Assembly: GCA_005786815.1 (NCBI GenBank)
Contig: SYDB01000176.1
Span: 1 to 11,200, forward strand
Reading direction: 5' to 3'
DNA: 11,200 nucleotides
Source of the DNA: Burkholderiales bacterium
GTDB lineage: Bacteria; Pseudomonadota; Gammaproteobacteria; Burkholderiales; Burkholderiaceae_C
Shown: positions 588 to 9,676 of the stretch, piece by piece
How the letters are laid out: every line of letters begins with the position of its first letter
Position numbering within the stretch: the first letter of the stretch is position 1
Notes under the pieces: generated by a model
The model's input: the letters and a program-made list of their open reading frames with translations, nothing else
Database searches by the model: none
Told to the model about the DNA's origin: nothing
Translations under genes and position numbers: made by a program

Positions 588-1583
588 ATGCGAACTAATT
601 TATCCAAATTTCTTTTATGCTGGGCGCTACTGTTTTTGAGTGGTTGTGGAGGCGGCGGCGGCGGATCTTCTAGTTCTAGCAGTACATATACCGCTTCGCC
701 ATCAGTTTTCATAAATAGCTCGACTATAAGTAATGTCGTATCTCTTGGTTATCTTAGGCAAATGTTTTTTGACGGCACTTACTTGTACGTAGTCAACTCT
801 ACAGATGCCGATCAAACAACTTCAAGTGGTGGAAAGATTTATAAGTTTGATACATCTGGCGCCTATGTCTCATCTATAGGTACATCCATAAAGTGGCCAT
901 TTTCTGTTTCCGTTTTTAACAGCAATGTATTCACAGTCGCAACAGATACGGTTGGCGGTAATTCGGGATTGATTAACTTAACTTCAAGTACAACACCAGT
1001 AGTGACTGCACTTTCAAGTCCGTATGGTGTTGGTATCGATAGTACTAATTCAAGAGTCTTCATCTCTGATGTGGGCAGCGGCACATACGCAGATGGAGTT
1101 GTGATTTATAACATCGGATCCTATACTTCTGTGGTTGCATCAGTAACTGTTGGTTCAAAACCTAGCGGTCTTGCATATGAAAGTTCGCTAGGCTATATGT
1201 TTGTGACTAGGTATAGCGGTGGCACTGCCGGAGTTTGGAAGATATCTACTGCTTCTCCCTATACGGCCTCTGCTTTTGCAACATCTTCATTGTTTAATAA
1301 TCCGATTGGAATAGCAGTCCGATCAACTTATAAAGAAGTCTATGTTGCCAACACAGGAACAACTGCTGGTGACACAGACAGTAGTATTTTAAAAATCACC
1401 TATGACAGCTCAGGTAACGCAACTGCAGTGACTACCTTCCTAAGTGGAACATCTACTAGCAGCATGTTGTGCGGACCAGTGGGATTGGCCATCAACGGTA
1501 ATGTTCTTTATATTTCAAATGGAACATGCACGACCAATGGTGCTTACGCAAAGTCAGTTATCAAAGTTACGTTAGATAGCTAA
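588..1583 (+). CDS. Poly-Gly/Ser lipoprotein with NHL/YVTN-like beta-propeller
   Basis: A 331-residue lipoprotein precursor. The signal peptide ends in a lipobox (Leu-Ser-Gly-Cys, lipidated Cys at residue 20), followed directly by six Gly and six Ser, a flexible tether. The rest is built of repeated units in which a Pro-x-Gly-(hydrophobic)-Ala/Gly turn leads to a strand such as YLYVVN, RVFISD, YMFVTR, EVYVAN or VLYISN (near residues 65, 156, 203, 250, 306). That is the pattern of NHL or YVTN propeller blades, about six in number. Cys295 and Cys314 could form a disulfide closing the last blade. No catalytic motif is visible, so the role is probably binding or surface structure (inference). Codons are AT-richer than in the flanking metabolic genes, rich in AGT, ACA and AAT, which hints at different ancestry or relaxed expression. 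The start is set by the signal peptide; there is no obvious Shine-Dalgarno. Confidence 0.85.
   Translation: MRTNLSKFLLCWALLFLSGCGGGGGGSSSSSSTYTASPSVFINSSTISNVVSLGYLRQMFFDGTYLYVVNSTDADQTTSSGGKIYKFDTSGAYVSSIGTSIKWPFSVSVFNSNVFTVATDTVGGNSGLINLTSSTTPVVTALSSPYGVGIDSTNSRVFISDVGSGTYADGVVIYNIGSYTSVVASVTVGSKPSGLAYESSLGYMFVTRYSGGTAGVWKISTASPYTASAFATSSLFNNPIGIAVRSTYKEVYVANTGTTAGDTDSSILKITYDSSGNATAVTTFLSGTSTSSMLCGPVGLAINGNVLYISNGTCTTNGAYAKSVIKVTLDS
651..662 (+). repeat. GGC x4 triplet tract coding the Gly tether
   Basis: Four perfect GGC copies lie between two GGA codons (648-665), just after the lipidated cysteine codon (645-647). Copy-number change by slippage would stay in frame and alter only the tether length. 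Many proteobacterial lipoproteins carry such a Gly run after the lipobox. Confidence 0.6.
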
Positions 1584-3208
1584 AAGTTCAACCGCAACTG
1601 CCTCTTCATCACCTTCCCGTTCGCGTTCCGAGGCAACGGAGTTTCTAACCAAGTAATCGTCTCCGGCACCTTGTAATCTGCCAAAGCTTGTGTGCAATGC
1701 GCGGTGACGATTTCTTGTGACATAGCCTGATTAGGCGCATAGATAAAAGCATGCACCCGTTCCCCTAAAACAGGGCAAGGCTTACCAACAATGGCCGCTT
1801 CTAGCACGCCTGGTATTCCCATTAAGCAGTTCTCAACTTCAACCGAGTAGATCTTGAAACCACCTCGGTTGAGCATGTCTTTTTTGCGGTCGAATATTTT
1901 GACGAAACCTTCTTCGTCCATACAACCCAAATCACCAGAGTGCCAATAGCCTGCAGTAAAAGACTGGGCTGTGGCAGCTGGGTTATCCCAATATCCAGGC
2001 ACCACCATGGGGCCATTGATCCAAAGTTCTCCTGTTTCACCAAATGGAACTTCTTGCCCCGCATCGTTCATGATGCGCACATCAGCACATGGCAAAACTC
2101 GACCAACACTGTCCAAATGTGCGTCATTCATGCCAGCAGGAATTAATGTGACCGGAGAGGTGGTTTCTGTCGCTCCATAGGCATTGCGCAAATCCAAATT
2201 GGGTAAATATTTGGCTAATTGCTCAATCACAGCAACAGGCATAGGTGCGCCACCATAGCCACCAATGCGCCAGTGCCCTAATGCATCAGCGCTGAAGGTG
2301 GGTTCTAACAAGCACAGGCTGTACATGGCTGGCACCATGAGCGTGTGCGTCATATTTTCTTGCGTGGCGAAATCTAAGAACTGCTTTGCCCTAAATTCAC
2401 GCATGATCAATGTGGCGCCGCCGACATTCACCATGGTGGCGATGTTAGCGATCAATCCTGTGACATGGCTGGCAGGAACGGCCAAGATAGAGGAATCGTT
2501 TTCAGTTAATTGCATACCGTATTGGTAATGCATCACCGAATGAGCGATGTTGGCATGCGTGATCATGGCGCCCTTGGGATTACCTGTGGTGCCAGATGTA
2601 TAAAGAATCACCGCCACATCAAATTCATTTGCCGAATAAGCTGGGACATCAATTTTGAATGGCTGATTCAATAAGCTAGGTAACGCAGCCGTTTGCAAGT
2701 AATTGCGTGACTGCGTATAGACATCGCCATCAATACAAATACGGTGTTCCAAAGATGGAACGTCTGATTGAAAAGGAATACGATCTGCCAAACTTTCATC
2801 AAACGCAACAGCCTTGGCTTTGCATTGATTCATGATGTAAGTCAGTCCTGGGCGTTGCTCGCGAATACCCACTGGCACTGCAATTGCGCCAAGATACTGA
2901 ATGGCAAACAATAAGAAAAAGAACTCAGAGCGATTGCTAACAAATAGAACCACTCTGTCCTGCGGTCTTAGACCTAAGTTATGCAGAACTTGCGCGTAAC
3001 GCTCTACAGAACTCCAAACCTCTTGGTAAGTCCAGCGCTGCGATTCAAATACGAGAGCTTTTCGGCTTCCATGTTTCGACACTGCAGTTTGCAGCAAGGA
3101 CAAAAAGCTTGTGGGGCGTTCTACAAAGCAGCGAGTTAGTCGGTCGTTTCCCCAGCTTTCGACTCTTGTTTTAGGTAATCGCGAATCTTTCCAAAATATT
3201 TGTTGCAT
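1580..3208 (-). CDS. AMP-forming acyl-CoA ligase (ANL superfamily)
   Basis: A 542-residue cytoplasmic adenylate-forming enzyme: acid + ATP + CoA gives acyl-CoA + AMP + PPi. All core motifs are present in order: the P-loop YTSGTTGNPKG (203-213), YGATE (344-348), the ATP-ribose Asp in SGDLG (424-428, D426), the hinge segment DRKKDMLNRGGFKI (440-453) and the adenylation lysine K532 in NANGKVMKR. Length is normal for acyl- or aryl-CoA ligases. It lies last in the kinase/dehydrogenase/GST cluster, 45 nt after the GST gene, so it likely activates the free acid fed into that pathway, as LvaE does in levulinate catabolism (inference). Chain length cannot be read from sequence. The ATG lacks a recognisable Shine-Dalgarno, but no later Met or Val start fits the family N-terminus. 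Its stop codon overlaps that of the convergent lipoprotein gene (shared CTAA at 1580-1583). Confidence 0.9.
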   Translation of the reverse strand: MQQIFWKDSRLPKTRVESWGNDRLTRCFVERPTSFLSLLQTAVSKHGSRKALVFESQRWTYQEVWSSVERYAQVLHNLGLRPQDRVVLFVSNRSEFFFLLFAIQYLGAIAVPVGIREQRPGLTYIMNQCKAKAVAFDESLADRIPFQSDVPSLEHRICIDGDVYTQSRNYLQTAALPSLLNQPFKIDVPAYSANEFDVAVILYTSGTTGNPKGAMITHANIAHSVMHYQYGMQLTENDSSILAVPASHVTGLIANIATMVNVGGATLIMREFRAKQFLDFATQENMTHTLMVPAMYSLCLLEPTFSADALGHWRIGGYGGAPMPVAVIEQLAKYLPNLDLRNAYGATETTSPVTLIPAGMNDAHLDSVGRVLPCADVRIMNDAGQEVPFGETGELWINGPMVVPGYWDNPAATAQSFTAGYWHSGDLGCMDEEGFVKIFDRKKDMLNRGGFKIYSVEVENCLMGIPGVLEAAIVGKPCPVLGERVHAFIYAPNQAMSQEIVTAHCTQALADYKVPETITWLETPLPRNANGKVMKRQLRLNF

Positions 3209-3253
3209 TTGGAATGACTAGTTTTACGTTTAAACCTAGAAATCGAGAAAAAT

Positions 3254-3961
3254 TTATCTAGATTTATATTGCGTTGATCCAAACAACATTTCATTGGCTT
3301 TCGGGTCGTTTTGTATAGGTTTGCGCAAATTTGCCAATACTTCAACACCGCGTTGCACGGCAGGTCTTGCAGCGATCACATCAAACCACTTTTTCAAGTT
3401 TGGGTAATCAGCCCAGTCCATGCCTTGGTTCTGCCAATTGCGCAGCCAGGGGAATATGGCCATATCGGCGATGCTGTATGCATTACCAGCAATAAATTTA
3501 GTCGAGGCTAGTTGTTTGTCCATCACACCATACAAACGTTTGGCTTCGTTGGTATAGCGGTTTACGGCATATTCAATTTTTTCTGGTGCGTACTGTCTGA
3601 AATGGTGGTTTTGACCGAGCATGGGTCCCACACCACCCATTTGGAACATCAGCCATTGCAAAACTTCAAACTTTGCACGGTCTCCCTTGGGTAAGAACTT
3701 GCCAGTTTTAGATGCCAAGTACAAAAGAATAGCGCCCGACTCAAACAAACTAATGGGCTCTCCATTTGGCCCATTTGGGTCAACCATCGCTGGTATTTTG
3801 TTATTTGGGCTTATTTTTAAAAACCCAGCCTCAAATTGGTCGCCATTACTAATATTGATGGGGTGCGCTAACCAATCCTTACCAAGGCGGTAGCCACATT
3901 CTTCCAACATGATGTGCACTTTATGCCCGTTGGGCGTGGCCCAAGAATAGACGTCAATCAT
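3254..3961 (-). CDS. yfcG: Nu-class glutathione S-transferase (YfcG/YghU-like)
   Basis: A 235-residue cytoplasmic GST. The N-terminal thioredoxin-like domain opens with the Nu-class active-site TPNGHK (T9, N11), as in E. coli YfcG, then NNKIP with the cis-proline P57 and the glutathione-binding FESGAI (73-78). The all-helical domain carries the family segment GPMLGQNHHF (112-121) and the N-capping box SIADMA (163-168). Known members are glutathione-disulfide-dependent disulfide-bond reductases that bind two thiols rather than classical conjugating transferases; assignment of that activity here is by family. The gene starts 2 nt after the acyl-CoA dehydrogenase stop, so it is almost certainly co-translated with it. 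Being locked between dehydrogenase and CoA ligase suggests a role tied to that pathway, perhaps protecting thiols from electrophilic enoyl or hydroxyalkenal intermediates (inference). Confidence 0.9.
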   Translation of the reverse strand: MIDVYSWATPNGHKVHIMLEECGYRLGKDWLAHPINISNGDQFEAGFLKISPNNKIPAMVDPNGPNGEPISLFESGAILLYLASKTGKFLPKGDRAKFEVLQWLMFQMGGVGPMLGQNHHFRQYAPEKIEYAVNRYTNEAKRLYGVMDKQLASTKFIAGNAYSIADMAIFPWLRNWQNQGMDWADYPNLKKWFDVIAARPAVQRGVEVLANLRKPIQNDPKANEMLFGSTQYKSR

Positions 3962-3963
3962 GA

Positions 3964-5226
3964 TTAAGTTCCTCTCGTAATTGGCATTTCAACATCATGC
4001 GGCATCGTTGCAATGTGGCGCGCTAATTCGAGCTTAGCAATCGAGTTACGGTGCACTTCATCCGGACCATCCGCCAAACGCAATGTGCGTTGGTGGGCAT
4101 AGGCGTAGGCGAGGGGGAAGTCATCGCTGACACCACCACCACCATGGGCCTGAATCGCCCAGTCAATGATTTGCGTTGCCATATTAGGTGCAATCACTTT
4201 GATCATCGCAATTTCTGATTTAGCAACTTTGTTACCGACGGTGTCCATCATGTAAGCCGCTTTGAGTGTCAGTAAGCGCGCTTGTTCAATCATGATACGT
4301 GCATCGGCAATACGCTCGTGCCACACACCTTGGCTGGAGACTGGCTTACCAAATGCAACGCGGGTATTGAGACGTTTGCACATGAGTTCCAAAGCGCGCT
4401 CAGCAATACCGATGGTTCGCATGCAATGGTGAATGCGTCCTGGGCCTAAGCGGCCTTGTGCGATTTCGAATCCACGGCCTTCGCCCAGCATTAAGTTACC
4501 CACAGGAACGCGAACGTTTTTCAATTCAACTTCCATGTGACCGTGGGGTGCATCGTCATACCCAAACACAGTGAGTGGGCGCAAAATTTTGATGCCAGGT
4601 GTATTGGCAGGTACGACGATCATGCTTTGTTGTGAATGGCGAGGTGCTTCAGGGTCTGTTTTACCCATCACAATGTAGACGGCGCAACGTGGGTCACCCG
4701 CGCCAGAACTCCACCACTTCAAACCATTGATGACGTATTCATTTCCTTCGCGTTTAATGCTGCACTGGATATTGGTAGCGTCAGAAGACGCGACAGCAGG
4801 CTCCGTCATCAAGAACGCGGAGCGTATTTCGCCGCGCAACAATGGCTCTAGCCACTGGTCTTTGATCTCTTCACTGGCATAACGCTCTAGTGTTTCCATA
4901 TTGCCTGTGTCAGGTGCTGAACAATTAAATATCTCAGCCGCAAACGGCACGCGTCCCATGATTTCGCACAAAGGTGCGTATTCCAAATTGGTCAAGCCTT
5001 GGGGTGCGCGCTTGCTGTGGGGTAAAAATAAATTCCATAAACCAGCTTTATTGGCTTTGGGTTTGAGTTCTTCCACAATTTTTGTGGGGATCCATGCATT
5101 GCCTTTGGCGCGGTTTTCTGCGATTTCAGCAAAAAATCTTTTTTCGTTGGGATAAATATGCGCGTCCATGAAGGCGAGCAAGCGTGCTTGCATATCCTTG
5201 ACTTTATCGGTGTAGTCGAAATTCAT
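3964..5226 (-). CDS. ACAD10/11-type acyl-CoA dehydrogenase (LvaC-like)
   Basis: A 420-residue FAD enzyme of the acyl-CoA dehydrogenase superfamily. The flavin and substrate motifs are present: FLMTEP (138-143), SSDATNI (147-153), [10 protein letters not shown] (167-176), [13 protein letters not shown] (261-273), [11 protein letters not shown] (359-369). The C-terminal ADGPDEVHR (385-393) marks the ACAD10/ACAD11 branch. In medium-chain dehydrogenases the catalytic base is the Glu of an EGT motif; here the aligned residue appears to be Asp386 (by-eye alignment). Bacterial and mammalian relatives working beside an APH-fold kinase act on 4-phospho-acyl-CoA and remove the phosphate (LvaC, ACAD11). 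The kinase gene lies 27 nt upstream, so that role is likely here, though ordinary dehydrogenation of an unusual acyl-CoA remains possible. Start chosen by a strong Shine-Dalgarno. Confidence 0.92.
3970..3975 (-). promoter_or_regulatory. Shine-Dalgarno of the GST gene
   Basis: AGAGGA on the minus strand lies 8 nt before the ATG at 3961 and inside the last codons of the acyl-CoA dehydrogenase. It fixes the GST start and supports translational coupling across the 2-nt gap. Confidence 0.65.
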
Positions 5227-5232
5227 GAAGAG

Positions 5233-5237
5233 CTCCT
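5233..5237 (-). promoter_or_regulatory. Shine-Dalgarno of the acyl-CoA dehydrogenase gene
   Basis: AGGAG on the minus strand lies 6 nt before the ATG at 5226, in the 27-nt gap after the kinase stop. It is the strongest ribosome binding site in the cluster and fixes the start. Confidence 0.75.
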
Positions 5238-5253
5238 AGAGTGATGTGTGTAT

Positions 5254-6339
5254 TTAAGCGAGTTGTGCAAATTTCCAGGCCAATTCAGCCATGGGTCGGG
5301 CGCCAGCACCAGAGGTTTTAGCTTGTTCGCTAGACGCGGTTCCTGCTTCCACACGTTTGGCAATGCCTTGCAAAATGGCAGCAATGCGAAACATGTTGTA
5401 AGCCAGATAAAAATTCCAATCGGTTTTTAAATCGCTGGGCGTTGCCAAGCCTGTGCGGTCACAGTACTTGTGAATATATTCAGATTCAGTGGGGATGCCA
5501 ATAGCAGCAACATCAACACCACCAATGCCTCTAAAAGTACCTGGTGGTATGTGCCACGCCATACAGTGGTAACTGAAGTCGGCCAATGGGTGACCAACGG
5601 TGGAGAGTTCCCAGTCCAACACGGCCATGACTTTGTTGTCGGTGGGATGGAATATCAGATTGTCTAAACGATAGTCCCCATGCACGATGCTGACTTTAGA
5701 AGCATCCAATGCACTTGCAGGCATATTCGCTGGCAGCCATTGCATCAGGTTGTTCATTTCTGCAATGGATTGGGTTTCAGACGCAACATATTGCTTACTC
5801 CAGCGACCAATTTGACGCTCAAAGTAATTGCCAGGTTTGCCGTAATCCGCCAAGCCGCATTCTTTGTAGGCGACCTTGTGCAGCGCTGAAATGACTCGGT
5901 TCATTTCGTCGTAAATACCAGCACGTTGCGCATTGCTCAATTCGGGCAAAGTCTGGTCCCACAACACGCGGCCTTGGACAAACTGCATGACATAGAACGC
6001 ACGACCAATGACAGACTCGTCTTCACACAACACATGCATTTTGGCGACGGGCACATCGGTGTTTTGTAGACCTTGCATGACTTTGAATTCACGCTCGACT
6101 GCATGCGCTGAAGGCAGTAGTTTGGCAACAGGGCCAGGCTTGGCACGCATCACATAACTTTGCGACGGTGTAACGAGTTTGTAGGTGGGATTGGATTGCC
6201 CGCCTTTGAACATTTCTAAGGTCAACGGGCCTTTGAAACCAGGCAAATGTTGGCTCAGCCAAGCTTGGAAAGCTGATTCATCAAACTGGTGCGCGCCACT
6301 AACTGCCTTAGTGCCTTCGAAGTTCTCGTAGCGACTCAT
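5254..6339 (-). CDS. APH-fold kinase, ACAD10/11 N-terminal type (LvaA-like)
   Basis: A 361-residue aminoglycoside-phosphotransferase-fold kinase. Visible motifs: the glycine-rich nucleotide loop FKGGQSNPTY (44-53), the ATP-binding lysine in VMRAKP (K67), the hinge GRAFYVMQF (112-120), the catalytic loop HGDYRLDN (220-227, base D222) and the Mg-binding Asp in DWE (D242). The GGQSNPTY and DWELSTVGHPLAD forms are those of the ACAD10/ACAD11 kinase domain and of LvaA, which phosphorylates 4-hydroxyacyl-CoA, and not those of antibiotic kinases. It sits directly upstream of the matching dehydrogenase, 27 nt apart. A longer reading back to 6468 exists, but its first 43 residues lie inside the regulator gene in another frame. 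The ATG at 6339 has a good Shine-Dalgarno and leaves a 13-nt gap, so it is preferred. Confidence 0.9.
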   Translation of the reverse strand: MSRYENFEGTKAVSGAHQFDESAFQAWLSQHLPGFKGPLTLEMFKGGQSNPTYKLVTPSQSYVMRAKPGPVAKLLPSAHAVEREFKVMQGLQNTDVPVAKMHVLCEDESVIGRAFYVMQFVQGRVLWDQTLPELSNAQRAGIYDEMNRVISALHKVAYKECGLADYGKPGNYFERQIGRWSKQYVASETQSIAEMNNLMQWLPANMPASALDASKVSIVHGDYRLDNLIFHPTDNKVMAVLDWELSTVGHPLADFSYHCMAWHIPPGTFRGIGGVDVAAIGIPTESEYIHKYCDRTGLATPSDLKTDWNFYLAYNMFRIAAILQGIAKRVEAGTASSEQAKTSGAGARPMAELAWKFAQLA

Positions 6340-6347
6340 TGAGTGAG

Positions 6348-6353
6348 CCCTTT
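6348..6353 (-). promoter_or_regulatory. Shine-Dalgarno that decides the kinase start
   Basis: AAAGGG on the minus strand lies 8 nt before the ATG at 6339, at the very end of the upstream regulator gene. It supports the short form of the kinase over a start at 6468. Confidence 0.6.
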
Positions 6354-7072
6354 CAATGGTCGGCCTCGCTGATGCGCAAAAGTGCATCGCGGTTGCGGAT
6401 GACCAAACCACCTGGCTCGATCCGAATCGCGTCTTCGCGCTCCATCGCTTTGAGTTCTTGATTGACACGTTGGCGCGACGCTCCCAACAACTGGGCCAGT
6501 TCTTCTTGCGCTAAATGCAGACCGATACGAATTTCCTCGCCGTTTGAGAGCGAAGGTACTCCGTAACTGCGCACGAGATGCAATAACTGCTTGGCCAAGC
6601 GCGAACGCAGAGGCAGGGTGTTGAGATCTTCCACCAAGCCAAACAATTGGCGAATGCGTCTGGCTTGTAAGCGCAACATGGCTTCGTAAAACTCGACGTG
6701 TTGGCTGAGTATTTTTTGAAAGTCGGCTTTGGCAACGCACAAAATTGTTGTCTCGCCATGCGCGTAGACATCGTGGGTTCGACGATCGCCGTCCAGTATG
6801 GCCACGTCGCCGAACCAGATGCCTGGTTCCACGTAGGTGAAAGTGATTTGCTTGCCCGATAGCGATGTCGAACTCACCCGCACTGCGCCTTTGGCGCACG
6901 CCATCCACTCTTCGGGCGGGTCTCCACGCGCCGCGATTAATTCGCCGTCTTTGCATCGTTTGGCGTAAGCGCATCTAAGAATGTCGTGTCTAAGTGAAGG
7001 TGAAAGGGATGAGAACCAACGGCCGGCGTTGATTGACTCGCGTTCTTCGATAGTAAGAATGGGTTCTTCCAT
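6353..7072 (-). CDS. Crp/Fnr-family transcription regulator
   Basis: A 239-residue regulator. Residues about 20-115 form a cyclic-nucleotide-binding-like beta-roll, with a phosphate-cassette-like stretch GIWFGDVAILDGDRR (84-98) that differs from the true CRP cassette. A dimerisation helix follows (about 118-150), then a winged helix-turn-helix with recognition helix around LAQLLGASRQRVNQELK (192-208). Cysteines are at 34, 40, 59 and 112 and do not form the clustered N-terminal pattern of oxygen-sensing FNR, so the ligand is open. It lies inside the cluster, 89 nt after the crotonase gene and 13 nt before the kinase, so it probably controls its own operon (inference). A TTG start at 7096 is possible, adding 8 residues, but ATG at 7072 gives a family-like N-terminus. 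Neither has a good ribosome site. Confidence 0.9.
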   Translation of the reverse strand: MEEPILTIEERESINAGRWFSSLSPSLRHDILRCAYAKRCKDGELIAARGDPPEEWMACAKGAVRVSSTSLSGKQITFTYVEPGIWFGDVAILDGDRRTHDVYAHGETTILCVAKADFQKILSQHVEFYEAMLRLQARRIRQLFGLVEDLNTLPLRSRLAKQLLHLVRSYGVPSLSNGEEIRIGLHLAQEELAQLLGASRQRVNQELKAMEREDAIRIEPGGLVIRNRDALLRISEADH

Positions 7073-7107
7073 AGCCTGTCTTGTGTGTGACCTCAAATTG
7101 ATTCATT

Positions 7108-7138
7108 GTCGCGAGGGAGACCTCTTACACGAAGCGAC
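7108..7138. repeat. Inverted repeat upstream of the Crp/Fnr gene
   Basis: GTCGC-GAGG (7108-7116), a GAGA loop, CCTC (7121-7124), a 9-nt bulge and GCGAC (7134-7138) can fold into a two-part stem. It lies in the 89-bp gap between crotonase and regulator, the only sizeable gap within the cluster. It has no T-run on the minus strand, so it is not an intrinsic terminator. It could be an operator, a leader structure, or chance; the stems are short. Confidence 0.3.
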
Positions 7139-7161
7139 CCTAGCGTAAAACGGGGGTGGGC

Positions 7162-7941
7162 TTACTTGTAGGTGGGTTTTTCTTTGTTCAAAAAGGCAGA
7201 AATGCCAAGCCCCGCGTTAGCGTGGTGTAAGTTTTTTACAAAGTGGTTGCGTTCTTGGGTTAAGTGGACATGGAGGCTCTGGGTCGGTGCATCATTGATC
7301 AACTCTTTGATGCTTTGCATAGCATTGGGCGCACGCGCATTGATACGTTCAGCTAAATCTAGTGCCTGTGTCAAAGCGGTTCCCGATTCCACCAAACGAT
7401 TCACGCTACCCAAAGCATGGAGGCGTTCCGCGCTAATTCGCTCGCCCAACAACATGAGTTCTGCGGCCAATTGGCGAGGTAAGGCTTGAGACAAGTTCCA
7501 ACTTCCGCCTCCGTCAGGAGATAAAGCAATGCTGCTGTAGGCCATGATAAAAATACTGTCTCTTGCAGCTACAACCAGATCGCACATCAACACTAAAGAG
7601 AAACCTGCACCCGCGGCAGCGCCTTCGACCGCGGCAATGACGGGTTTGGGAAAGGTGTGAATGGCTTCTATCCAGGTATGCAATCCATCAATGCTTTGCG
7701 CTTGAACTTCCGTGGGTTGTTCACGGTTCGCCAATAAGCGTTGCAGATTTCCGCCTGCACAAAAGTGCGCGCCTTCACCCGTGATGATGACGCTACGTAT
7801 CTCAGGATTGCCTTCGGCGGCATTCAAAGCTTCGATGCCAGCGGTATAGATTTCAGGGCCTAAGGCATTGCGAAGCGTTGGGTTGGAGATGGTCAAAACC
7901 AGCGTTTGACCGTGCACTGCACTTTTGAGTTGCCCAATCAT
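7162..7941 (-). CDS. PaaG-like enoyl-CoA hydratase/isomerase (crotonase family)
   Basis: A 259-residue crotonase-fold protein, normal family length. The oxyanion-hole segments are intact: HFCAGGNLQ (59-67) and EGAAAGAGFSL (106-116). The two glutamates of rat enoyl-CoA hydratase are both replaced, by Ser115 and, by my alignment, Tyr135. An Asp in SPDGGGSW (141-148, D143) sits where PaaG, the ring-1,2-epoxyphenylacetyl-CoA isomerase, carries its catalytic Asp. That pattern favours double-bond isomerisation over plain hydration. No other phenylacetate gene (paaABCDE, paaZ, paaK) is nearby, so the substrate is more likely the enoyl-CoA produced by the neighbouring dehydrogenase (inference). The ATG follows the stop of the 3-hydroxyacyl-CoA dehydrogenase directly (TAAATG), implying translational coupling. 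Confidence 0.9.
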   Translation of the reverse strand: MIGQLKSAVHGQTLVLTISNPTLRNALGPEIYTAGIEALNAAEGNPEIRSVIITGEGAHFCAGGNLQRLLANREQPTEVQAQSIDGLHTWIEAIHTFPKPVIAAVEGAAAGAGFSLVLMCDLVVAARDSIFIMAYSSIALSPDGGGSWNLSQALPRQLAAELMLLGERISAERLHALGSVNRLVESGTALTQALDLAERINARAPNAMQSIKELINDAPTQSLHVHLTQERNHFVKNLHHANAGLGISAFLNKEKPTYK

Positions 7942-9462
7942 TTATTGCTCGATGTGGGTCAAACTCAAACCAATGGCGCCGCGACGGCGCAACCATGGGC
8001 TTGGGCGATAGCGTGGGTCACCGTAAACGGTTTGCACATTGAAAAGCACTTCCAGAATTTCTGTGGGTCCATACAAATCACCCATAGCCAAAGGGCCCAT
8101 CGGATATCCCAGACCCAAAGTCACTGCAGTTTCTAAATCTTGAGGGCTACAAATGCCTTGCTGGCAAATATCGCAGGCAATATTGACGATATTGGCAACG
8201 ACCCGCTGGGTCACAAACCCACCGCTGTCACGGATAACGCTGACGGCTTTACCGTCGCGAGCAAACAATGCATGCGCTGCTTCGCGCATATCAACACGTG
8301 TCGCGGGGTTGGTGGCAAGCACACGGCGCTTGGTCAACTTGTCGTCGATTAAAAAATCAATACCGACGGTGCGCGCAGGGTCCAAACGTTCGACGATCGC
8401 AACGGTAGTGACATCAAAGCCCAGTGGCGCCACGATGGACAGCGCTTGCGCAGATGGAGAAGCACCAGTTTCAATCTTGGCGCCCAAGTTCTTAAGCAGT
8501 AGCAGCAGTTCAGCACGCCTTACCGCGCGGGTTGACACCCAGACTGGTGGCATTTCGTGGACTTCGGGGATGGGTGGTTCAGCAGGGATTTGCGCTACAC
8601 CGTTTTCATACTTGTAGAAACCATCTGCGACTTTTTTGCCGAGCACACCGCCCGCCAAGCGCTGTGCGGTGATAACACTCGGACGGTAGCGAGGCTCTTC
8701 GTAGTACTGCTGGTAAATGGATTCCATGACTGGATGCGAGACATCCAGGGCAGTTAAGTCCATAAGCTCAAAGGGCCCGAGTTTGAAACCAGCTTGGTCT
8801 TTCAAAATGCGGTCAATAGTGGCGAAATCTGCAATCCCTTCGGACACGATACGCAGCGCTTCCGTGCCGTAACCACGTCCCGCATGGTTCACGATGAAAC
8901 CCGGTGTGTCTTGGGCATTAACCGCTTTGTGGCCCATTTGCTTGGCATAGTCGCTCAATCTTGTGCAAACGCTGGGGTTGGTTTTAAGGCCGGCAATGAC
9001 TTCCACCACTTTCATCAGGGGAACGGGGTTGAAGAAGTGATAACCAGCAAATTGCTCTGGGCGCTTGAGGGCTGCAGCGATTGCAGTGACTGAGAGGGAC
9101 GATGTGTTGGTTACCAGCACTGCGCTGGGGTCCACCAATTGTTCGAGTTCAGCAAAGAATGATTTTTTGATGTCTAGGCGTTCAACAATGGCTTCAATCA
9201 CCAAATCGCAGTCGCTCAAGTCGCTTAACTGACCGGCACTTTGAAGATTGGCTTTAAATTGCGTAACTTGTTCTAAGGTAAATCGGTTTTTCTCTAGCAG
9301 TTTGTCCCACTGCTGTTGAATATTTTTGGAGGCTTTGGCCACGGCCTGCGCTTGCACGTCATACAGTTTGACAAGACTGCCAGCTTGCGCTGAGATTTGA
9401 GCGATCCCTTGTCCCATGGCACCAGTCCCTACAACGCCAACAGTTTGAAAAGTAGATTTCAT
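7942..9462 (-). CDS. 3-hydroxyacyl-CoA dehydrogenase, two C-terminal domains (PaaH/HbdA type)
   Basis: A 506-residue NAD-dependent enzyme oxidising (S)-3-hydroxyacyl-CoA to 3-ketoacyl-CoA. The Rossmann domain opens with GVVGTGAMGQG (9-19). The catalytic residues are visible: S121/S122 in TNTSSLS, H142 in GYHFFNP, E154 in VVEV and N192 in GFIVNH. A first 3HCDH C-terminal domain (about 188-285) is followed by a degenerate linker domain and a second copy (about 413-505). The duplication shows in EEPRYRPS (255-262) against GDPRYRPS (481-488). This architecture is that of PaaH and of polyhydroxybutyrate-type dehydrogenases, longer than the 280-residue single-domain form. A TTG start at 9507 would add 15 residues of poor quality, so ATG at 9462 is chosen, although it lacks a Shine-Dalgarno. 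It is the first gene of the central cluster and abuts the crotonase gene with no gap. Confidence 0.92.
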   Translation of the reverse strand: MKSTFQTVGVVGTGAMGQGIAQISAQAGSLVKLYDVQAQAVAKASKNIQQQWDKLLEKNRFTLEQVTQFKANLQSAGQLSDLSDCDLVIEAIVERLDIKKSFFAELEQLVDPSAVLVTNTSSLSVTAIAAALKRPEQFAGYHFFNPVPLMKVVEVIAGLKTNPSVCTRLSDYAKQMGHKAVNAQDTPGFIVNHAGRGYGTEALRIVSEGIADFATIDRILKDQAGFKLGPFELMDLTALDVSHPVMESIYQQYYEEPRYRPSVITAQRLAGGVLGKKVADGFYKYENGVAQIPAEPPIPEVHEMPPVWVSTRAVRRAELLLLLKNLGAKIETGASPSAQALSIVAPLGFDVTTVAIVERLDPARTVGIDFLIDDKLTKRRVLATNPATRVDMREAAHALFARDGKAVSVIRDSGGFVTQRVVANIVNIACDICQQGICSPQDLETAVTLGLGYPMGPLAMGDLYGPTEILEVLFNVQTVYGDPRYRPSPWLRRRGAIGLSLTHIEQ

Positions 9463-9521: not shown

Positions 9522-9623
9522 TTAAAGAAATTTTCTAAAACGATGCGTGGCATGCGCTGCCAACAGGCTGGTTACTATCGATAACATAACGCCACCCAAG
9601 GCAAACCAATGCAACTGGTCCAT
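9522..9623 (-). CDS. Possible 33-residue membrane peptide
   Basis: A short minus-strand frame beginning at an ATG at 9623 and ending TAA. It encodes a single hydrophobic segment (about residues 5-24, WFALGGVMLSIVTSLLAA) followed by a basic tail (HATHRFRKFL), the layout of a small inner-membrane protein with a cytoplasmic positive end. A GGGAGG lies about 18 nt upstream, too far for an ideal ribosome site, and a shorter out-of-frame ATG is closer to it. It fills the gap between the D-2-hydroxyacid dehydrogenase and the 3-hydroxyacyl-CoA dehydrogenase. It could be chance coding; I recognise no family. Confidence 0.3.
   Translation of the reverse strand: MDQLHWFALGGVMLSIVTSLLAAHATHRFRKFL
9534..9563 (-). 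promoter_or_regulatory. Candidate sigma70 promoter of the dehydrogenase operon
   Basis: TTGGCA (9558-9563, 5 of 6 to the -35 consensus), an 18-nt spacer and TTTAGA (9534-9539, 3 of 6 to the -10). Transcription would begin near 9527, leaving a leader of about 65 nt. It competes with the -10-like box at 9469-9474. It also lies inside the doubtful 33-codon ORF; at most one of the two is likely to be functional. Confidence 0.3.
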
Positions 9624-9676
9624 ATGTCATTGTGCGATTAACCTCCCGCCACCGGCGAGAGACGATGCATCTCTTT

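Follow-up and report, generated by a model that had tools for sequence, protein, structure and literature searches.

The question raised by contig SYDB01000176.1 of a Burkholderiales bacterium is whether seven closely packed genes on its minus strand, running from position 9462 to position 1580, serve the breakdown of 4-hydroxy acids by way of phosphorylated acyl-coenzyme A (CoA) esters. The window analyzed here is this entire contig, 11,200 bases long, from an assembly of 1.29 Mb in 249 contigs that is 59% complete. We consider it likely that the block encodes an ACAD11-type route feeding 4-hydroxyacyl-CoAs into β-oxidation, because the closest solved homologues of its kinase and acyl-CoA dehydrogenase are ACAD11-like, five functional residues are kept, the two genes are adjacent, and Burkholderia orthologs of LvaA and LvaC are active (PMC11342911). 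The seven co-directional genes are as follows, with matches from a Pfam scan that covered ten window genes.

7942..9462, minus strand: 3-hydroxyacyl-CoA dehydrogenase, 506 residues, with two 3HCDH stretches (Pfam 3HCDH_N, 1e-58)
7162..7941, minus strand: crotonase-superfamily protein of the 'alternative oxepin-CoA hydrolase' family (Pfam ECH_1, 3.6e-49; NF046063)
6353..7096, minus strand: Crp/Fnr-family transcriptional regulator, TTG start as called (Pfam cNMP_binding, 6.5e-17; HTH_Crp_2, 4e-14)
5254..6339, minus strand: APH-fold kinase of the ACAD11 kinase-domain type, catalytic Asp222 (Pfam APH, 3.7e-50)
3964..5226, minus strand: acyl-CoA dehydrogenase of the ACAD11 type, Arg259/His267/Arg270/Asp386 (Pfam Acyl-CoA_dh_1, 2.1e-36)
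3254..3961, minus strand: glutathione S-transferase (GST)-family protein (Pfam GST_N/GST_C)
1580..3208, minus strand: AMP-forming acyl-CoA ligase, a lineage-specific neighbor (Pfam AMP-binding, 7.9e-86)

The five genes named in an initial annotation of this DNA (kinase, acyl-CoA dehydrogenase, ligase, crotonase and 3-hydroxyacyl-CoA dehydrogenase) are all present between 1580 and 9462, on the same minus strand and with strong Pfam matches. The regulator and the GST were absent from that account, and its description of the genes as separated by tiny gaps holds once these two are counted, with spacings from the 3-hydroxyacyl-CoA dehydrogenase to the ligase of 0, 65, 13, 27, 2 and 45 bp, but fails for the five named genes alone.

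Among solved structures, the kinase is closest to 3dxp (540 bits) and to mouse ACAD11 (8v3v/8v3u, 270 bits), and the dehydrogenase to human ACAD11 (488 bits), mouse ACAD11 (484 bits) and 4hr3 (461 bits), with the next solved acyl-CoA dehydrogenase scoring 128 bits. Over the aligned residues, identity to mouse ACAD11 amounts to 146/335 (44%) for the kinase and 223/389 (57%) for the dehydrogenase. The mouse residues that have been linked to catalysis or to recognition of the 4-phosphoacyl-CoA (PMC12440821) are Asp220 in the kinase domain and, in the dehydrogenase domain, Arg626, His634, Arg637 and Asp753. All five are retained in our alignment, in which the ACAD11 chain is numbered one lower than in PMC12440821, as Asp222 in the kinase and Arg259, His267, Arg270 and Asp386 in the dehydrogenase.

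The trees give the same answer. The Arg/His/Arg/Asp signature is carried by 48 of 55 aligned dehydrogenases, which form a single clade (96 in the SH-like approximate likelihood ratio test, SH-aLRT), and is missing from seven, three of them paralogues from the same genome. The window kinase falls within a clade of 47 of the 57 rows in its tree, which includes ACAD11 and 3dxp (SH-aLRT 100), and the ten kinases linked to DUF6285 genes fall apart from this clade. The two trees come from rapid searches, run without bootstrap; they include some long-branched rows, and open inner branches make up 22 of 54 and 12 of 51. The initial assignment of both proteins to the ACAD10/11 type is therefore borne out, since the closest solved homologues, the trees and the active-site residues agree, and the phylogenetic comparison it proposed, with ACAD11 as the reference, places both inside ACAD11-containing clades. 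The two proteins very probably constitute an ACAD11-type 4-hydroxyacyl-CoA system.

What the enzymes catalyze in this organism, on which substrate, and what the crotonase, transferase and regulator contribute is inferred from the genes, their homology, their active-site residues and their conserved order. The kinase would phosphorylate the 4-hydroxyl group of the CoA ester of a 4-hydroxy acid. The dehydrogenase would then oxidize the C2-C3 bond, eliminate the phosphate and reduce the dienoyl-CoA with its own FADH2, following the mechanism of oxidation, phosphate elimination and internal reduction that is described in PMC11342911 as needing no outside electron acceptor; its product would be a 2-enoyl-CoA, formed without any net transfer of electrons. 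A 3-hydroxyacyl-CoA arising later would be taken by the 3-hydroxyacyl-CoA dehydrogenase, which scores 722.8 bits against the cut-off of 508 for NCBIfam NF006124 and stays under the PaaH equivalog cut-off (434.3 versus 669.4). Control of the block probably falls to the Crp/Fnr regulator.

This arrangement recurs widely. Of 150 genomes from the same family, 135 have a kinase match at E ≤0.001 and 124 have one of at least 63% identity, plus one partial match. For the comparison of gene order we used 117 distinct loci (120 retrieved, three duplicates removed), of which the 92 with a kinase of at least 73% identity are termed close loci; fractions for the close loci count just those with enough flanking DNA. 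On this basis the Crp/Fnr regulator lies directly upstream of the kinase in 89/89 close loci, the crotonase upstream in 73/79 and the 3-hydroxyacyl-CoA dehydrogenase upstream in 73/76, and the acyl-CoA dehydrogenase lies directly downstream in 81/83. A GST gene is found downstream in 35/72. The ligase is present in 5/64, a ligase relative in 7/92 when loci with short flanks are included, and the ligase matches in five other kinase-bearing genomes are just 27-36% identical. Among the 18 loci of the 63-73% identity band the regulator is found in 16, the GST in nine, the crotonase in six, the 3-hydroxyacyl-CoA dehydrogenase in two and the ligase in none, and none of the block partners was found at the seven loci whose kinase is below 63% identical. 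The regulator is the most constant partner of the kinase, and the ligase loses the place that it had been given in the conserved set. Because it recurs in loci of many genera, the ligase excepted, the gene arrangement is beyond chance, and it is ordinary for its family.

The nearest kinase loci are in records titled Burkholderiales and Comamonadaceae, several of them Limnohabitans, and the closest, L078, has a kinase 98% identical to that of the window. At the close kinase loci (L038-L157) the dehydrogenases fall into two identity groups, of 68-72% and 80-99%, which are sister clades among the rows in the tree, as if the copy had been exchanged in some genera. One locus with a typical Comamonadaceae block (L136) is on a contig titled Akkermansia muciniphila, a record that is probably mislabeled.

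Another point not borne out is hydration by the crotonase, which the initial annotation had taken to be an ordinary hydratase. The protein exceeds two NCBIfam cut-offs, NF046063 (oxepin-CoA hydrolase, alternative type; 382.6 versus 300) and the generic enoyl-CoA hydratase model NF005700 (390.0 versus 274), and among solved structures it is nearest to 4jfc, an entry deposited as an enoyl-CoA hydratase, followed by E. coli PaaG (4fzw_C), with which it has in common a Pro-Asp-x-Gly-Gly motif at 142-146. Compared by alignment with another crotonase from its own genome, in which the two catalytic glutamates are intact, it has Ser115 and Tyr135 in their place, and Met133 stands two residues before the second of them, at the Gln162 position. 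We take that second glutamate, at the Tyr135 position here, to be Glu164 of the rat enzyme. Because the hydratase catalytic residues are replaced, an ordinary hydration step by this protein is doubtful, and it probably acts on a by-product or intermediate in an isomerase-like manner rather than as a standard hydratase.

The replacements have a precedent. The Paraburkholderia bryophila protein H281DRAFT_04594, which that organism requires for phenylacetate use and for which oxepin-CoA hydrolase activity was proposed, has Ser118 and Met135 where rat enoyl-CoA hydratase has Glu144 and Gln162 (PMC9007349), and the window crotonase has the same replacements, with Ser115 at the Glu144 position and Met133 at the Gln162 position. 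Phenylacetate catabolism might thus be the true setting of the crotonase, as the alternative oxepin-CoA hydrolase, and perhaps of the 3-hydroxyacyl-CoA dehydrogenase too, their place beside the 4-hydroxy-acid genes being due to chance. Along with the NF046063 score and the shared serine and methionine, this would fit the PaaA/PaaC-family gene pair of the window genome and a genome without a kinase match (G038) in which the crotonase lies 5.3 kb from paaA/C.

The distribution of the crotonase argues the other way. NF046063 matches at E ≤1e-70 occur in 88 of the 150 family genomes, 84 of them over the cut-off, and their presence tracks the kinase, being found in 82/125 genomes with it versus 6/25 without it (P 2e-4); all of these association tests treat genomes as independent and leave shared ancestry uncorrected. 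Where a genome has both a close kinase and the crotonase, the latter lies within 6 kb upstream of the kinase on the same strand in 73 of 82 cases. With the phenylacetate (paa) genes the association across the 150 genomes is not significant (61/97 versus 27/53, P 0.17), and among the 124 kinase-bearing genomes a crotonase stands at the kinase locus in 54/88 paa-positive and 19/36 paa-negative ones (Fisher P 0.42), so that a link to paa suggested by visual inspection of 36 genomes was not confirmed. Just one of the 61 genomes with both, the already mentioned G038, has the crotonase within 20 kb of its best paaA/C match. A phenylacetate enzyme placed here by chance is accordingly a possibility that we do not favor. 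These counts also give reason to doubt the database name of oxepin-CoA hydrolase in genomes that lack paa, in which, as a tentative suggestion, the crotonase may be a dedicated third enzyme of 4-hydroxy-acid breakdown, for example a 3-enoyl- or 2,4-dienoyl-CoA isomerase, with the Crp/Fnr-controlled block as the standard 4-hydroxy-acid regulon of Comamonadaceae and their relatives.

The flanks of the block bear on where its substrate would come from. Two further window features are concerned.

9522..9670, minus strand: remnant of a major facilitator superfamily (MFS) transporter gene (alignment to L078, L079, L080 and L081)
588-1583, plus strand: lipoprotein-like protein with a poly-Gly/Ser start, convergent with the ligase

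Five genes stand between the GST and the ligase in L078 and L080, the nearest relatives; those of L080 are parts of a Liv-type ATP-binding cassette (ABC) transporter according to Pfam, and the five of L078 align with them in sequence and order. The ligase of L087 lies at the same distance from the block as in these two, L079 ends ahead of the expected ligase position, and the more distant L081, L097 and L098 have no gap between GST and ligase. With the five-gene transporter intervening in L078 and L080, GST and ligase are neighbors at some loci and not at others, and we rejected their adjacency as evidence for a single operon. On the other side of the block, between a D-2-hydroxyacid dehydrogenase gene and the 3-hydroxyacyl-CoA dehydrogenase gene, ∼1.02 kb is gone from the window, comprising most of an MFS transporter gene that is present in L078, L079, L080 and L081 (Pfam MFS_1 6.6e-41 in L080; also identified as such in L078 and L081), and just the two gene ends are left. 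The two deletions may be real losses or assembly errors. Should the state of the relatives be the usual one, the block would be linked to import of an external compound. The ligase of this lineage and, in its nearest relatives, the Liv-type transporter between GST and ligase and the upstream MFS transporter probably supply the substrate from outside. The Liv-type periplasmic binding protein gene of L078 (L078:13173-14454) is split into two frames, compared with one 434-residue frame in L080, and is either a broken gene or a sequence error. The lipoprotein-like protein matched no Pfam or NCBIfam model; it has a counterpart in L080 and L081 and none in L087 or L098.

Alternatively, the block might clear endogenous 4-hydroxy lipids such as peroxidation products and not serve a growth substrate, with the GST handling conjugates of 4-hydroxyalkenals. 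The GST gene starts 2 bp past the dehydrogenase and has counterparts downstream in nearly half of the testable close loci (35/72), the presence of kinase matches in 135 of 150 family genomes is what a housekeeping function would give, and the ligase is not conserved. Set against this, no GST was found downstream in the other 37/72 close loci, and the nearest NCBIfam models to the window GST are glutathione-dependent disulfide oxidoreductases, whose cut-off it does not attain (228.5 versus 332). As uptake genes and a ligase moreover accompany the block in the nearest relatives, we regard lipid clearance as rather unlikely.

The reading of the block as a route for 4-hydroxyacyl-CoAs has several observations to contend with. 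In the trees the kinase and the dehydrogenase each group with their own bacterial family and not as immediate sisters to ACAD11, and in the 63-73% identity band the acyl-CoA dehydrogenase adjoins the kinase in nine of the 18 loci and not in the other nine. The ligase is a local neighbor and not a conserved part of the block, no thiolase is found among the ten scanned window genes, and both transporters of the nearest relatives are absent from the window contig. Finally, the only published phenotype that we found for the NF046063 family is phenylacetate use (PMC9007349). All of these weigh against that reading.

From the lack of LvaB and LvaD the initial annotation had argued that the natural substrate may be a ready-made 4-hydroxy acid or lactone. 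A small LvaB-type gene is indeed lacking beside the kinase, whose flanking gaps are just 13 and 27 bp, and no Pfam domain of an LvaD-like short-chain dehydrogenase/reductase (SDR) or an LvaR sigma-54 regulator occurs in the ten scanned window genes, but the conclusion does not follow. Phosphorylation in Pseudomonas putida has been assigned to LvaA and LvaB jointly (PMC9399607), yet the study in which the Burkholderia kinase is active makes no mention of LvaB in its main text (PMC11342911). In the region analyzed of the Pseudomonas citronellolis levulinate cluster no lvaB was found (PMC6692424), and therefore the absence of LvaB alone is no sign of a different substrate. Nor does a missing LvaD imply one, as the reductase could sit elsewhere in a genome that is 59% complete.

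The substrate could on these grounds be levulinate or another 4-keto acid, as for the lva operon, with the ketone reductase encoded elsewhere: the core chemistry would be the same, the P. citronellolis cluster lacks LvaB as well, and linkage of the reductase is unnecessary. We nevertheless judge a keto acid quite unlikely, as no SDR reductase or sigma-54 regulator is among the ten window genes and the kinases that do adjoin SDR genes are different ones, only 32-35% identical to that of the window. These belong to a second arrangement, with two SDR genes and a histidine phosphatase in 3/3 annotated loci, which resembles the P. citronellolis levulinate cluster (PMC6692424), and the two of the three that are in the tree fall on another branch of the window-kinase clade.

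Across the wider class, the window genome included, ACAD11-type dehydrogenases (E ≤1e-60) are found in 32 of 274 genomes and the kinases (E ≤1e-10) in 35 of 274. We assume LvaB to be a DUF6285 protein, and no DUF6285-linked kinase could be shown to be LvaA. DUF6285 matches occur in 7/274 class genomes, with no match in the 59% complete assembly of the window genome, and at all 10 DUF6285 loci listed (within L158-L175) a distant APH kinase lies beside the gene or within the retrieved flank. Of the dehydrogenases near these loci, those of L172, L174 and L175 have the Arg/His/Arg/Asp signature and those of L168-L171 do not. On plasmids, an ACAD11-type dehydrogenase is accompanied by a neighboring kinase in Sphingobium and Paraburkholderia and stands without one in one Cupriavidus, and no lva operon was seen in the three plasmid regions inspected. 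The Cupriavidus gene (L235:8001-9227, C. necator H16 pHG1) encodes a dehydrogenase 76% identical to that of the window and has cytochrome c maturation genes as neighbors; the gene table, which is incomplete, lists no kinase within 8 kb.

That the APH-fold gene encodes an aminoglycoside-modifying enzyme can be dismissed, as its weak APH(3') model match of 35.1 bits lies far below the cut-off of 205 and below its scores against 3dxp and ACAD11, in a fixed catabolic context.

What the locus adds is thus not new chemistry. The chemistry was assigned to ACAD10/11 by two papers, of 2024 and 2025, and the core reaction is already in print for a bacterium of the same order. The same kinase-dehydrogenase pair is very common in one large bacterial family and often has a fixed neighborhood of regulator, crotonase without the hydratase residues, and 3-hydroxyacyl-CoA dehydrogenase, which makes these fixed neighbors testable candidates for additional steps in 4-hydroxy-acid breakdown. 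The points of interest beyond the known chemistry are the crotonase and the regulator beside the core pair; in the open-access literature we found no description of a Comamonadaceae block with regulator and crotonase, most subscription papers being outside that scope.

Set beside known systems, the locus has likenesses and differences. It resembles the lva operon in having a kinase, an acyl-CoA dehydrogenase and a CoA ligase, and probably in a 4-phosphoacyl-CoA intermediate, and differs in having the Crp/Fnr regulator, GST, crotonase and 3-hydroxyacyl-CoA dehydrogenase in place of LvaB, LvaD and the sigma-54 regulator. The candidate counterpart of LvaE is the ligase, which is of the AMP-forming kind and attains the cut-off of none of the best 25 of the 107 NCBIfam models that it matched. 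The route analogous to LvaA/LvaC that the initial annotation envisaged is supported for the core pair, and not for a conserved ligase, hydration by the crotonase or the argument on substrate. The likeness of the crotonase to H281DRAFT_04594 lies in its residues and in NF046063, which carries the name of that function, the hydratase residues being lost alike (PMC9007349), whereas the window crotonase belongs to a kinase-linked block that is also found in genomes without paa.

Closer to the core pair stand the Burkholderia orthologs of LvaA (Q63VL0) and LvaC, each of which substitutes for the matching ACAD10 domain in vitro with 4-hydroxyhexanoyl-CoA, and which are described as closer to ACAD10 than their P. 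putida counterparts (PMC11342911). By its 44% identity to mouse ACAD11 the window kinase would be of this closer kind, and the orthology of the window genes to the Burkholderia pair is likewise drawn through similarity to the mammalian domains. With mammalian ACAD11 and ACAD10 themselves the window shares the kinase and dehydrogenase families, both catalytic aspartates and the Arg/His/Arg signature (PMC12440821, PMC11342911), but what is one chain in mammals is here two adjacent polypeptides, set in a bacterial block with a regulator, a GST, a crotonase and a 3-hydroxyacyl-CoA dehydrogenase.

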